Part shown: positions 16,528-43,734 of the stretch, one piece after another
Layout of the letters: each line of letters starts with the position of its first letter
How positions within the stretch are numbered: the stretch's first letter is position 1
Assembly: GCA_903912525.1 (NCBI GenBank)
Contig: CAIWHK010000069.1
Location: 1 to 55,917, forward strand
DNA length: 55,917 nt
Direction: 5' to 3'
From: an uncultured bacterium
Lineage (GTDB): Bacteria; Krumholzibacteriota; Krumholzibacteriia; LZORAL124-64-63
Notes under the pieces: generated by a model
What the model was told of the DNA's origin: nothing
The model's input: the letters and a program-made list of their open reading frames with translations, nothing else
Databases searched by the model: none
Made by a program: the position numbers and the translations under genes

Positions 16528-16885
16528 TGGTGGAGGCGGCGGGAATCGAACCCGCGTCCGTAACCGGCGCCCCGCCGGCGTCTACATGCTTAGCTCCCTG
16601 TTAATTTAACCCGACGACTGGCCAGGGAACGCGCCAATCGCAAGGCTAGCCCCATGTTTAGTCTCGTCCGTCCGCCAGGGACACGCTTCAGGACCAGACA
16701 CCAGAAAACGGCGCTCCCATTGGGCCAGTCCGGTGACCCCCCGACCCGGGAACGGGCTGCGTTATTTAGGCAGCCAGTGCGAAGTTAGCTTCGTCACTTG
16801 TTTTTGTTCCACCGTTTAACGAGATGGATGGGATCTCGGCATGCAGCCAACGGTCCTCCGACCACGTCGAGACCATTTCGCCCCC
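16528..16885 (-). ncRNA. ssrA: Transfer-messenger RNA (tmRNA)
   Basis: The 5' end GGGGGCGAAATGGTCTCGAC and the 3' end (T-arm GCGGGTTCGATTCCCGC, then CGCCTCC and ACCA) are classic. The acceptor stem pairs over 7 bp with one G-U. The CCA is encoded. Length is 358 nt, typical of tmRNA. The tag-coding segment ends in ...SDEANFALAA followed by tandem stops TAA and TAA one base apart; the resume codon is not certain. tmRNA with SmpB rescues stalled ribosomes and tags the peptide for proteolysis. An extended -10-like TGCTATCTT lies at 16937-16945. A strong terminator follows the 3' end. Confidence 0.96.
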
Positions 16886-39537: not shown

Positions 39538-39691
39538 GCACGTCACTCTCGACGGGAGTATCCGGGTACGTCGGCCCGACCGGACCTGACGCCCGTTGCA
39601 ATTCCCCTTCCGATGCGTTATCGGTAGCCGGCGCCCCGGATTTAGGGGCGCGTGCGGGCCGCTGCGCCCGCCCCACCCGTCCCAGGAGAGC

Positions 39692-41770
39692 GTGCCGACC
39701 GTGCCCTGTCCCCCCGCGAGTGCTTTCGGTCCCGGTTCGGCCTTTCCGCTGGGTGCGTCGGTGACCGGCGACGCCGTCAATTTCGCCGTCCATGCGCCCC
39801 GGGCCACGGCCGTGCGCCTGCTGCTGTTCACCGGCCCGGAAGATCCCGCGCCCGCGGCCATCCACACCCTTGACCCCGCCGCCAACCGCACCGGCCCCTA
39901 CTGGCATGTCCGGGTGGACGCCTGCGGGCACGGCCAGGTCTACGGCTGGCAGGTCGACGGCCCGCGTGACCCGGCGGCCGGCCTGCTGCACGACGGCGCC
40001 AAGCTGCTGCTGGACCCGTATGCGCGCGCGGTGGCCGGGCACGGCATCTACAACCGCTCCGCGGCAGCCACTCCCGGCGACAACACGGCCTCGGCGCTGC
40101 GCGCGGTCGTCGTCGACAACGAACGCTACGACTGGCAGGGAGACCGACCGGTGCCCGCGCCCGCACGCGACGTCATCTACGAGATGCACGTGCGCGGCTT
40201 CACCGCGCACCCCTCGAGCGGCCTGGACCCCGAACTGCGCGGCACCTACGCCGCGCTGGGCGCGCGCGCGGGCTGGCTGCGCGAACTGGGCGTGACGGCC
40301 GTCGAACTGATGCCCGTGTACGCATTCGACGCGCAGGACGCGCCGCCCGGACGCACCAACGCCTGGGGCTACAGCCCCGTCGGCTGGTTCGCGCCGCACG
40401 CCGGCTACAGCAGCGACCGCACACCGACCGGGCCGGTCGACGAGTTCCGCGACATGGTCCGCGCGCTGCACCGCGAAGGCCTGCGCGTCATCCTGGACGT
40501 CGTCTACAACCACACGGCCGAGGGCGGGCCCGACGGGCCGATGTTCTCGTGGCGCGGCTTCGACAACCGGGGCTACTACCTGGCGGGGCCCGAGCCGGGC
40601 CGCTACGCGGACTTCACCGGCTGCGGCAACACGTTCAACTCGAACCACCCGGTCGGCAGCCGGATGATCCTCGACTCGCTGCGCTATTGGGTGTCGCAGA
40701 TGCACGTCGACGGGTTCCGCTTCGACCTGGCCTCGGTGCATGCCCGCGGCGAGGACGGCCGCCCGCTCGACCGCCCGCCCGTGCTGTGGGCCATCGGCAC
40801 CGACCCCGAGCTGGCCGGCGCCTCGCTGATCGCCGAAGCCTGGGACGCCGCCGGCCTGTACCAGGTGAGTGACTTCCCCGGCGGCCGCTTCGCCGTCTGG
40901 AACGGACGCTTCCGCGACGACGCGCGGCGCTACTGGCGCGGCGACGAGAACACCATCGAGAGCCTGATGGCGCGCATCGTCGGCAGCCCCGACGTACTGC
41001 GCGGCGAACGCGCGCTGCCGTCGCACTCGGTCAACTTCGTGACCTGCCATGACGGCTTCTGCCTGCGCGACCTTGTCTCCTACGACCGCAAGCACAACCG
41101 CGCCAACGGCGAGGACAACCGCGACGGCACGGACGACAACCTCAGCTGGAACTGCGGCATCGAGGGCGCCACGGATGACCCCGTGGTCGCCGCGCTGCGC
41201 GCGCGCCAGGTCCGCAATTTCCTGGCGCTGACGCTGCTGTCGCACGGCACGCCGATGCTCAACTCGGGCGACGAGTTCGGCCACACCCGCGTGGGCAACA
41301 ACAACCCCTGGTGCCAGGACAACGGCCTCAACCACCTCGACTGGTCGCCCGCGGCGCAGGACGCCGGCCTGCTGCGCTTCACGCGCCTGCTGGTCGCGCT
41401 GTCGCGCGGGCTGCGCGTCCTGCAGGAGGACCGCTACTGGGCGGCGACCAACCCCGAGCGGACCGGCGACATCTCGTGGCACGGCGTGCGCCTGGGCCAG
41501 CCCGACTGGAGCCCGCGCTCGCGCTCGCTGGCCTTCACGCTCGCGCACCCTGATGGCGACGAGCACCTCCACGTCATGGCGAACGCCGGAGCGCAGGGCC
41601 TGTCCTTCGAGTTGCCGCCGCCACCGGCCGGCCGGCAGTGGCTGACCGTGGTGGACACCGCGCGGCCGTCGCCAGGCGACATCGCCGGACCCGACGCCCC
41701 CGCACTGCCGGCCGAGGCGCCGGTCAAGGTGGCGCCCCACAGCATCGTCGTGCTCCTGTGCCGGCCGTGA
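39692..41770 (+). CDS. glgX: Glycogen debranching enzyme, GlgX/TreX-type isoamylase
   Basis: 692 residues. An N-terminal CBM48-like domain (LGASVTGDAVNFAVHAP) is followed by a GH13 barrel with YEMHVRGFTAHPSSG, LDVVYNHTAEGG, catalytic Asp in DGFRFDLASVH, acid/base Glu in IAEAWDAAG and stabilising Asp in TCHDGF. It removes alpha-1,6 branches from glycogen or limit dextrins. The GTG at 39692 has AGGAGAG just upstream. A weak promoter-like pair TTGCAA and TATCGG (39597-39625, 17 bp spacing) lies ahead. No other glycogen genes are in the window. Confidence 0.93.
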   Translation: MPTVPCPPASAFGPGSAFPLGASVTGDAVNFAVHAPRATAVRLLLFTGPEDPAPAAIHTLDPAANRTGPYWHVRVDACGHGQVYGWQVDGPRDPAAGLLHDGAKLLLDPYARAVAGHGIYNRSAAATPGDNTASALRAVVVDNERYDWQGDRPVPAPARDVIYEMHVRGFTAHPSSGLDPELRGTYAALGARAGWLRELGVTAVELMPVYAFDAQDAPPGRTNAWGYSPVGWFAPHAGYSSDRTPTGPVDEFRDMVRALHREGLRVILDVVYNHTAEGGPDGPMFSWRGFDNRGYYLAGPEPGRYADFTGCGNTFNSNHPVGSRMILDSLRYWVSQMHVDGFRFDLASVHARGEDGRPLDRPPVLWAIGTDPELAGASLIAEAWDAAGLYQVSDFPGGRFAVWNGRFRDDARRYWRGDENTIESLMARIVGSPDVLRGERALPSHSVNFVTCHDGFCLRDLVSYDRKHNRANGEDNRDGTDDNLSWNCGIEGATDDPVVAALRARQVRNFLALTLLSHGTPMLNSGDEFGHTRVGNNNPWCQDNGLNHLDWSPAAQDAGLLRFTRLLVALSRGLRVLQEDRYWAATNPERTGDISWHGVRLGQPDWSPRSRSLAFTLAHPDGDEHLHVMANAGAQGLSFELPPPPAGRQWLTVVDTARPSPGDIAGPDAPALPAEAPVKVAPHSIVVLLCRP

Positions 41771-41851
41771 ACGCCGTCCCGAAGGGATCGCGGCAGCCCC
41801 GAAAGGTCGAATCCGGTGGCGACCGATCCCGGCTTCATGTATGATGCCCCG

Positions 41852-42000
41852 GTAGGCAACGGGGGATTCTTCTCAACGAATCCTTGCTCACAGACGGACA
41901 TCTGGACTGACAGCCGCGCTGCTTCTTGTCCGATTCGCCCGGATCTTCCGTTGACCCCCGCCCCCGCCCCGGCTCGCCGGAAGCGGGGGCGGAACTTTTT
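41852..42000 (+). ncRNA. Candidate structured RNA (leader or sRNA) before the cysteine desulfurase
   Basis: A -10-like TATGAT at 41840-41845 would start transcription near 41852. The predicted RNA closes with CAACGG/CCGTTG (41857-41862 with 41948-41953). It encloses hairpin GGATTC/GAATCC (41864-41869 with 41878-41883) and a longer arm CGGACA/TGTCCG (41895-41900 with 41927-41932) containing a CAGC-CGC-GCTG hairpin. A strong terminator follows at 41958-42000. Base-paired arms were read by eye. It matches no riboswitch class I recall. The cysteine desulfurase starts 28 nt after the terminator's T-run. Confidence 0.45.
41958..42000 (+). terminator. Strong rho-independent terminator ahead of the cysteine desulfurase
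   Basis: CCGCCCCCGC (41958-41967) pairs with GCGGGGGCGG (41983-41992), with inner CCGG/CCGG stem and loop CTCG; AACTTTTT follows. It ends 27 bp before the desulfurase ATG. It could end glgX transcripts, end a small RNA, or act as an attenuator. A G-run at 41861-41865 could pair with the C-run of the stem and prevent its formation. Confidence 0.85.
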
Positions 42001-42027
42001 CTCCCCTGCCCGGACACGGGAGCCCGC

Positions 42028-43176
42028 ATGAAGCACGACGCCCCGCTCTACCTGGACCACAACGCCACCACGCCCATCGACCCGCGCGTCCTCGAGGCGA
42101 TGCTGCCGTGGTTGCGCGAGGGCTTCGGCAACCCGTCGAGCCCGCATGCCTACGGCCGGCGCGCCCGCGATGCCGTCGAGTCCGCGCGCGGGCAAGCCGC
42201 CGCGCTGCTCGGCGCGCCGTTGGGCGGCATCATCTTCACCAGCGGCGGCACCGAGTCCGACAACCACGCCGTCATCGGCGCCGCGCGGCTGGGGCTGCGC
42301 GCCGGGCGCGACGAACTGGTCATCTCGGCTGTCGAGCACCCGGCCGTCAGCGAACCCTGCCGCCAACTCGCGGAAGCCGGCTGTCGCACGGTGGTGCTCG
42401 GCGTCGACGGCGAAGGCCGCGTCGATCCCGGCGAGGCGGCGCGCGTGATCGGGCCGCGCACCGCGCTTGTCTCGGTGATGCACGCGAACAACGAGACCGG
42501 CGCCATCCAGCCGGTGGCGGCCCTGGCCGCGCTGGCGCGCCAGGCCGGCGCGCTGATGCACACCGATGCGGCCCAGTCGGCCGGGAAGATCCCCGTCCGC
42601 ATGGACCAGTTGGGCGTGGACCTGCTGACCGTGGCCGGGCACAAGCTGTACGCCGCGAAGGGCGTGGGCCTGCTCTGCCTGCGCGAGGGGTTGGCGCTGC
42701 CGAACCTGATGGCCGGCGCCGGCCATGAGCAGGGTCGCCGTCCCGGCACCGAGAACGTGGCGGCCATCGTGGGACTCGGGCGCGCGTGCGAGATCGCGCA
42801 GCGCGAGCTGGCGGAAGAAGCCGAGCGGCTGGCCCAACTGCGCGACCAGCTCGCCGCGCTGCTGTGCGCCGCGGTCCCGGGTTCCGCCGTCCACTCGGCC
42901 GGCGCGGCGCGCCTGCCCAACACGTTGAGCATCGGCTTTTCGGGCGTCATCGCCGGCCGTGTGCTGGCGCACCTGCCCGACATCGCCGTCTCGGCGGGCG
43001 CGGCCTGCCACGGCAGCGGCGGCGGGTCGTCGGTGCTGTCGGCGATGGGCGTGGCGCCGGAACTGGCGCTGGGAACACTGCGGGTGTCGCTCGGGCGCGG
43101 CACGCGCGCGCAGGATATCCCCCACGCGGCGGCAGCCATCACGCTGGCGGTCGCTGCAGCGCGCGCCGAGGGCTGA
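42028..43176 (+). CDS. Cysteine desulfurase (NifS/IscS-like)
   Basis: 382 residues, fold-type I PLP enzyme. Key stretches are LYLDHNATTPIDP, FTSGGTESDNHAV, AVEHPAV, MHANNETGAIQP, HTDAAQSAGK and the PLP lysine in VAGHKLYAAKG, then RRPGTENVAAIVGL. The active-site Cys is in GAACHGSGG. It makes alanine and a persulfide from cysteine for Fe-S or thiocofactor assembly. No iscU or sufBCD is adjacent. ATG at 42028 has GGGAG at good spacing. The gene lies right after a structured leader and terminator and is convergent with an Rrf2-family regulator. Confidence 0.92.
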   Translation: MKHDAPLYLDHNATTPIDPRVLEAMLPWLREGFGNPSSPHAYGRRARDAVESARGQAAALLGAPLGGIIFTSGGTESDNHAVIGAARLGLRAGRDELVISAVEHPAVSEPCRQLAEAGCRTVVLGVDGEGRVDPGEAARVIGPRTALVSVMHANNETGAIQPVAALAALARQAGALMHTDAAQSAGKIPVRMDQLGVDLLTVAGHKLYAAKGVGLLCLREGLALPNLMAGAGHEQGRRPGTENVAAIVGLGRACEIAQRELAEEAERLAQLRDQLAALLCAAVPGSAVHSAGAARLPNTLSIGFSGVIAGRVLAHLPDIAVSAGAACHGSGGGSSVLSAMGVAPELALGTLRVSLGRGTRAQDIPHAAAAITLAVAAARAEG

Positions 43177-43218: not shown

Positions 43219-43734
43219 TCAGCGAGGGCGCAGCGCGGGGTCGATGAGCTCGCTGCCGGTGAGCGCCGCCAGTTGCCTCTGCAGCGTCGGGCAGCGGTTC
43301 TCCTCGGTCAGCACTTCGGCCAGCGTCGTCGAGGCGAAGGCCGCCTCCACCATGCCCAGCGCGTTGTCGAGGCGGCTGTGCAGCGGGCACAGTTCCGAAC
43401 TGTGGCTCTCCAGGTCGATGGGGCACGACTCGATGCGCTTGAGCGGGCTGACCGCGTTGAGGATGTCGAGCATGCGCCAGTCCTCGGGACGCCCCACCAG
43501 CACGAAACCGCCCTTCAACCCGCGCGTGGACTGCACGATGCCGGCCTTGACCAGCGATTGCAGCACCTTCGACAGGTAGCTCGGCGGGACCTTCATCGCC
43601 GTGGCGATCTGCTTCGTGGTCATGGAGCGGCCACCGCCGGCGGCCAGGGCCAGGACGGCGCGCATCGCGTATTCGATCGTCAGGGAGAACAATGCGTGCC
43701 CCGCGGCGCCGGCGCCGTGTGTTTGGATGCCCAA
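43219..43734 (-). CDS. Rrf2/IscR-family transcriptional regulator
   Basis: About 171 residues from TTG 43734, or 157 from TTG 43692. Winged helix LTIEYAMRAVLALA, QIATAMKVPPSYLSKVLQSLVKAGIVQSTRGLKGGF. Cysteines in ESCPIDLESHSSELCPLH and NRCPTL resemble the Fe-S ligands of IscR/NsrR. Family members sense Fe-S status or NO. The first start has AGG 7-8 bases ahead; homologues usually begin near LFSLTIEYA, so the second start is possible. It likely represses itself (operator described) and may relate to the neighbouring cysteine desulfurase. Confidence 0.87.
   Translation of the reverse strand: MGIQTHGAGAAGHALFSLTIEYAMRAVLALAAGGGRSMTTKQIATAMKVPPSYLSKVLQSLVKAGIVQSTRGLKGGFVLVGRPEDWRMLDILNAVSPLKRIESCPIDLESHSSELCPLHSRLDNALGMVEAAFASTTLAEVLTEENRCPTLQRQLAALTGSELIDPALRPR

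Follow-up and report, generated by a model that had tools for sequence, protein, structure and literature searches.

Small regulatory RNAs that work independently of Hfq through exposed C-rich loops are known from Gram-positive bacteria, where RsaE/RoxS and FsrA typify the group. A search of the literature on desulfurase leaders and on small RNAs associated with glgX yielded, among the papers listed, nothing relevant to the locus described here, which lies in a 55,917-nt stretch of a contig from an uncultured member of the Krumholzibacteriota (the whole stretch analysed, hereafter the window). Judged from its sequence and that of its relatives, the window encodes a small structured RNA that had not been described before, from a gene with a predicted promoter and terminator of its own. 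The RNA family is absent from Rfam. Its hosts, represented in this analysis by draft genomes alone and without recognizable Hfq, are bacteria in which small-RNA regulation is essentially unstudied.

The RNA locus

The RNA unit occupies the interval between the glycogen-debranching gene glgX (positions 39596 to 41770, forward strand; Pfam domains CBM48, alpha-amylase, and isoamylase C-terminal domain), which ends with its stop at 41770 and lies outside the RNA, and a cysteine desulfurase gene (aminotransferase class V according to Pfam; 42028 to 43176, forward strand), the ATG of which is at 42028. An Rrf2-family regulator gene (43219 to 43734, reverse strand) is convergent with the desulfurase gene. 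Elsewhere in the window, the only Rfam family recognized is a tmRNA gene (16528 to 16885, reverse strand; 175.2 bits).

All parts of the unit are on the forward strand. The −10-like TATGAT that the first-pass annotation had reported is indeed present at 41840 to 41845, and a −35-like element, TGGCGA (41817 to 41822), is situated 17 nt upstream of it. The predicted transcript spans 41852 to 42000, with its 5′ end placed ca. 7 nt past the −10 element and its 3′ end at a T-run. This segment folds at −66.0 kcal/mol (z −3.44), a value matched by none of 200 shuffles, versus a z of −2.09 and 6 of 200 shuffles as good for the span originally proposed (41840 to 42027).

In the minimum free energy (MFE) structure, GGGGGATTC (41861 to 41869) closes the outer stem by pairing with GGATCTTCC (41941 to 41949), forming the 9-bp helix P1, which is prolonged outward by GGCAAC (41855 to 41860) and GTTGAC (41950 to 41955). 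Inside it, CGAATC (41877 to 41882) pairs with GATTCG far downstream (41932 to 41937) to form helix P2. A strong intrinsic terminator, also anticipated in the first-pass annotation, follows at 41958 to 42000; it consists of a GC-rich CCGCCCCCGC/GCGGGGGCGG stem (41958 to 41967/41983 to 41992) with an inner hairpin and a terminal TTTTT (41996 to 42000), and was not among the output of a simple terminator scan. Since P1 and the terminator form together in the MFE of 41852 to 42000, no antiterminator switch is evident and mutually exclusive terminator/antiterminator folds were not found; the fold likewise lends no support to the idea that an internal G-run competes with the terminator's C-run.

The architecture suggested initially was a three-way junction built from four helices. 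Its outer stem CAACGG/CCGTTG exists and is the only one of these helices to be conserved. In the window sequence itself, the 5-bp CGGACA/TGTCCG arm is formed and so is the CAGC/GCTG hairpin, but neither is conserved, while the GGATTC/GAATCC hairpin does not appear in the MFE. The junction was not confirmed, and its exact fold is not maintained across homologues. Over 15 homologues, the four helices were paired in 48.6% of cases, compared with 31 to 41% when slid by 1 to 3 columns and 46.0% in shuffles. The conservation in relatives applies to the RNA as such and to P1, which covaries; the four-helix fold is barely above its controls.

Homologues and genomic distribution

A covariance model (R1) built from only three congener sequences was run on 80 genomes of the class, the same 80 that make up the phylum search. 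Matches in other genera were confined to the same family, with E values per genome from 9.6e-8 to 0.3. Every homologue with enough flanking sequence sits directly 3′ of glgX and, because R1 holds no glgX information, this synteny validates the weak matches in G017 and G021 as well. A second model (R2), built from 15 sequences, gave E values of 5e-15 to 3e-22 on the homologues, figures that are circular for the training members, and disclosed no further convincing member; weak extra R2 matches in G064 (contig C258) and G021 (contig C10) were rejected because the full core was missing. Two additional forms were recognized by eye on reading the 3′ flanks of glgX, namely a divergent one in G007 and a long one in G070 that both covariance models had missed. 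The latter (L168) lies behind glgX and has the same conserved ends, with a central insert of ca. 170 nt.

In all, six genera (g1, g7, g8, g9, g10, and g12) have members, 16 sequences altogether with a single copy per genome, the best-scoring homologues being those of g8 (96 to 97 bits). Two of the three congeners, G001 and G003, keep the whole unit at the same place, and the 27-nt core at 41916 to 41942 is identical in these congeners except for two T/C changes in G003. In the third, G002, the RNA unit is absent and the stop of glgX and the start of the desulfurase gene overlap in ATGA, indicating that the desulfurase needs no such unit. The RNA is likewise absent from g13 and from several g12 genomes and is hence dispensable; about half of the family genomes are without it. 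It was not found in nine family genomes without a glgX match. A search of 32 genomes of other groups gave no RNA match, a weak negative as the set contained no positive control.

Conserved fold

The homologues share a common fold consisting of the 9-bp P1, an internal loop with CCC on its 3′ side, P2, and a variable central loop that ends in CUYGYC. P1 is strongly supported, with ca. 97.4 to 98.5% of cells paired versus 36 to 62% when slid (16 sequences, 13 distinct; arms registered by hand in several of them owing to loop gaps, and a bulged A omitted in G003). Double-sided changes affect six of its nine pairs and 0 of 500 shuffles reach any of the measures, statistics that ignore the relatedness among the 16 sequences. 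The stem is often extended outward by unrelated complementary arms (AAAAG/CUUUU, ACAGAC/GUCUGU, UGCAGU/ACUGCA, and CAAC/GUUG), as in the outer part of the closing stem in the window. These data reveal a conserved secondary structure with covariation, as expected of an independent small structured RNA gene.

P2 behaves differently in that its 5′ arm is CGAAUC or CGGAUC in 16 of 16 sequences and its 3′ arm GAUUCG is invariant in all of them; since the only change is from A-U to G-U, its conservation comes with little covariation support. The unpaired CCC between P2 and P1 (41938 to 41940) is invariant in 15 of 16 members and is UCC in G070. On the 3′ side of the central loop, the insert of which spans from ca. 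45 to ca. 170 nt across members, the strand CUYGYC (CTTGTC in the window, 41925 to 41930) is kept in nearly all homologues, as CUCGCC in most of them, and has diverged in G021.

Promoter and terminators

A TANNNT hexamer is found 13 to 19 nt upstream of P1 in all 15 homologues with upstream sequence, against a mean of 2.5 and a maximum of 9 in 5,000 shuffles, the window and spacing for this comparison having been picked after looking at the data. In 11 of the 15, TGG is located 40 to 45 nt upstream of the closing stem, i.e., 20 to 21 nt before TANNNT. The combined TGG-N20/21-TANNNT motif, often preceded by a T-run, may represent the standard kind of promoter in this family. Such conservation of the putative promoter points to a separate transcription unit in every genus. 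A 27-nt match to 41813 to 41839 in G008 and G016 was considered as a shared promoter and dismissed as coincidental, as there is apparent coding sequence there and the stretch is not conserved in G001.

By sequence, the RNA has its own terminator in g1, g8, g9, g12, and G007 and lacks one in g7 and g10. The terminator arms in G001 and G003 are the same as in the window; those of g8, g9, g12, and G007 are of other sequence.

Genes downstream of the RNA

The arrangement beyond the RNA varies among genera. In g1 and G007 the RNA and its terminator are followed by a co-directional desulfurase gene, and in G009 and G066 (both g7) and in g10 the desulfurase lies behind the RNA with no terminator between them. 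In another g7 genome, G017, the desulfurase is gone from this position and a convergent Rrf2 gene directly faces the RNA. In G063 (g8), g9, and g12, the RNA and terminator are followed by a convergent tamB (PF04357 in G063 and G064), and in two further g8 genomes, G010 and G019, the contigs stop shortly past the terminator, and what remains looks by eye like the 3′ end of tamB. G010 and G019 have a desulfurase gene at another locus, with no RNA upstream. Conversely, the desulfurase is directly behind glgX without the RNA in G002 and in G015, G060, and G062 (g13).

The RNA therefore assorts independently of the desulfurase but not of glgX. With a convergent tamB and an intervening terminator, there is no co-directional gene left to lead in g8, g9, and g12, and together with G017 these genomes show that the RNA does not keep a conserved position upstream of the desulfurase, as a riboswitch or attenuator would. 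The desulfurase linkage being limited to some genera, and the existence of glgX-desulfurase arrangements without the RNA, favor a trans-acting small RNA over a leader or riboswitch. The control of the desulfurase by transcription attenuation that was originally envisaged is not supported by the same genomes. Its fallback, an independent small RNA, is sustained by the promoter, the terminator, and the conservation in relatives.

Known RNA families, coding potential, and Hfq

No match to Rfam 15 was obtained at gathering score in the element or in ten homologue loci, in agreement with the earlier view of a structured RNA outside the known classes, and permissive thresholds applied to the window and the ten loci returned only chance matches. 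Among the latter was the alphaproteobacterial ar14 small RNA (RF02344), at 21.9 bits and an E value of 2.1 in the G071 homologue (gathering score, 58.8). The signal recognition particle (SRP) RNA families RF00169 and RF01854 had no match at the RNA locus. In G000 (97.75% complete), no SRP RNA was recognized at all, with RF00169 giving a chance-level 16.5-bit match on contig C14 and RF01854 none; its SRP RNA may be in an assembly gap or divergent.

A small peptide was also contemplated, as frame 0 reads ...SPDSPSLP in many members, but the start is missing or the frame is interrupted in several. GAUUCGCC keeps its third codon positions and there is no conserved start codon, in line with a noncoding RNA. 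Hfq (PF17209) was detected in 0 of 38 family genomes and was positive in control genomes, which does not fit an Hfq-dependent small RNA.

Discussion

Overall, we favor with reasonable, not firm, confidence an independent small noncoding RNA gene, the product of which would be a free RNA of ca. 150 nt acting in trans. Comparison across genera documents the promoter, the fold and, in most genera, the terminator at the sequence level; that the RNA is transcribed, released, and active in trans is what we infer from them. The RNA is probably a free-standing regulator to which the desulfurase is a neighbor by position only. Presumably synthesized from its own promoter and released by its own terminator in most genera, it would most likely act through the C/U-rich strands exposed beside P2 (CUYGYC and CCC), which could pair with G-rich mRNA sites, e.g., ribosome-binding sites, presumably with no need for Hfq. 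In g7 and g10 the desulfurase is not preceded by a terminator; there, the same promoter may drive this gene as well and the RNA could double as its 5′ leader. Against an independent RNA gene are the presence of the desulfurase directly behind the RNA in g1, g5, g7, and g10, the dispensability of the RNA, and the slight covariation of P2.

The main rival is a protein-binding role, since the P2 region is conserved beyond pairing needs. An RNA of this kind would, in the manner of 6S or Csr RNAs, titrate or guide RNA polymerase or an RNA-binding protein via the P2 internal loop, and the near-invariance of P2 with its flanking strands and the rod-like shape with conserved internal loops would suit it. 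We nevertheless hold it to be rather unlikely, because a canonical 6S RNA (RF00013) is encoded elsewhere, the sole match in the genome (contig C28, 74.4 bits) with no second one at an E of ≤10, and because the GGA motifs of a CsrA sponge are not conserved by eye (about one each in G064 and G065). A related proposal, equally doubtful in our estimation, is that the near-invariant core (CGAAUC/CUYGYC-N-GAUUCG-CCC), set within a closing stem that covaries freely, binds a specific ligand or protein, making the RNA a new functional class and not an ordinary antisense small RNA.

That the RNA arose as a cis-acting desulfurase leader (riboswitch or attenuator), later orphaned where the gene was lost, seems improbable. 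The co-directional desulfurase behind it in g1, G007, two of three g7 members, and g10, the terminator that separates the two in g1 and G007, and the Rrf2-type regulator gene beyond the desulfurase would all accord with such a leader, yet the top-scoring g8 members retain promoter, core, and terminator with no desulfurase. The desulfurase genes without the RNA (at other loci in G010 and G019, and behind glgX in G002 and g13), the lack of a terminator ahead of the desulfurase in g7 and g10, and the coexistence of core and terminator in one fold also speak against it. Most improbable of all is that the RNA belongs to the 3′ end of the glgX mRNA, as a conserved element for its stability or termination: although the RNA occurs behind glgX only, and is not seen where glgX gave no match, it has a promoter of its own in every homologue that could be assessed, its closing stem is a module distinct from the terminator, and in G069 a plain terminator-like repeat is all that ends glgX, with the RNA missing. 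The case illustrates how proximity to a gene can mislead, genome comparison having recast a supposed riboswitch of the desulfurase as an RNA gene in its own right, the function of which the alignment now makes testable.

Compared with described systems, the RNA resembles sulfur or Fe-S riboswitches and attenuators in the succession of structured RNA, terminator, and desulfurase seen in g1, and differs from them in its unconserved desulfurase linkage, the absence of an antiterminator fold, and the lack of an Rfam match. Like 6S RNA it is a long hairpin interrupted by internal loops, with a stem closing its ends, but it is shorter, does not match RF00013, and occurs in only about half of the genomes of the family. 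SRP RNA is near-universal, whereas this RNA is absent from G002 and g13; the likeness to ar14 is a weak match in the G071 homologue alone, not repeated in the others. Although its C-rich strands flank an internal helix, and the parallel is drawn without sequence or structural homology, the RNA has in common with RsaE/RoxS and FsrA its own promoter and terminator and conserved C-rich unpaired strands, in a family in which no Hfq was found.
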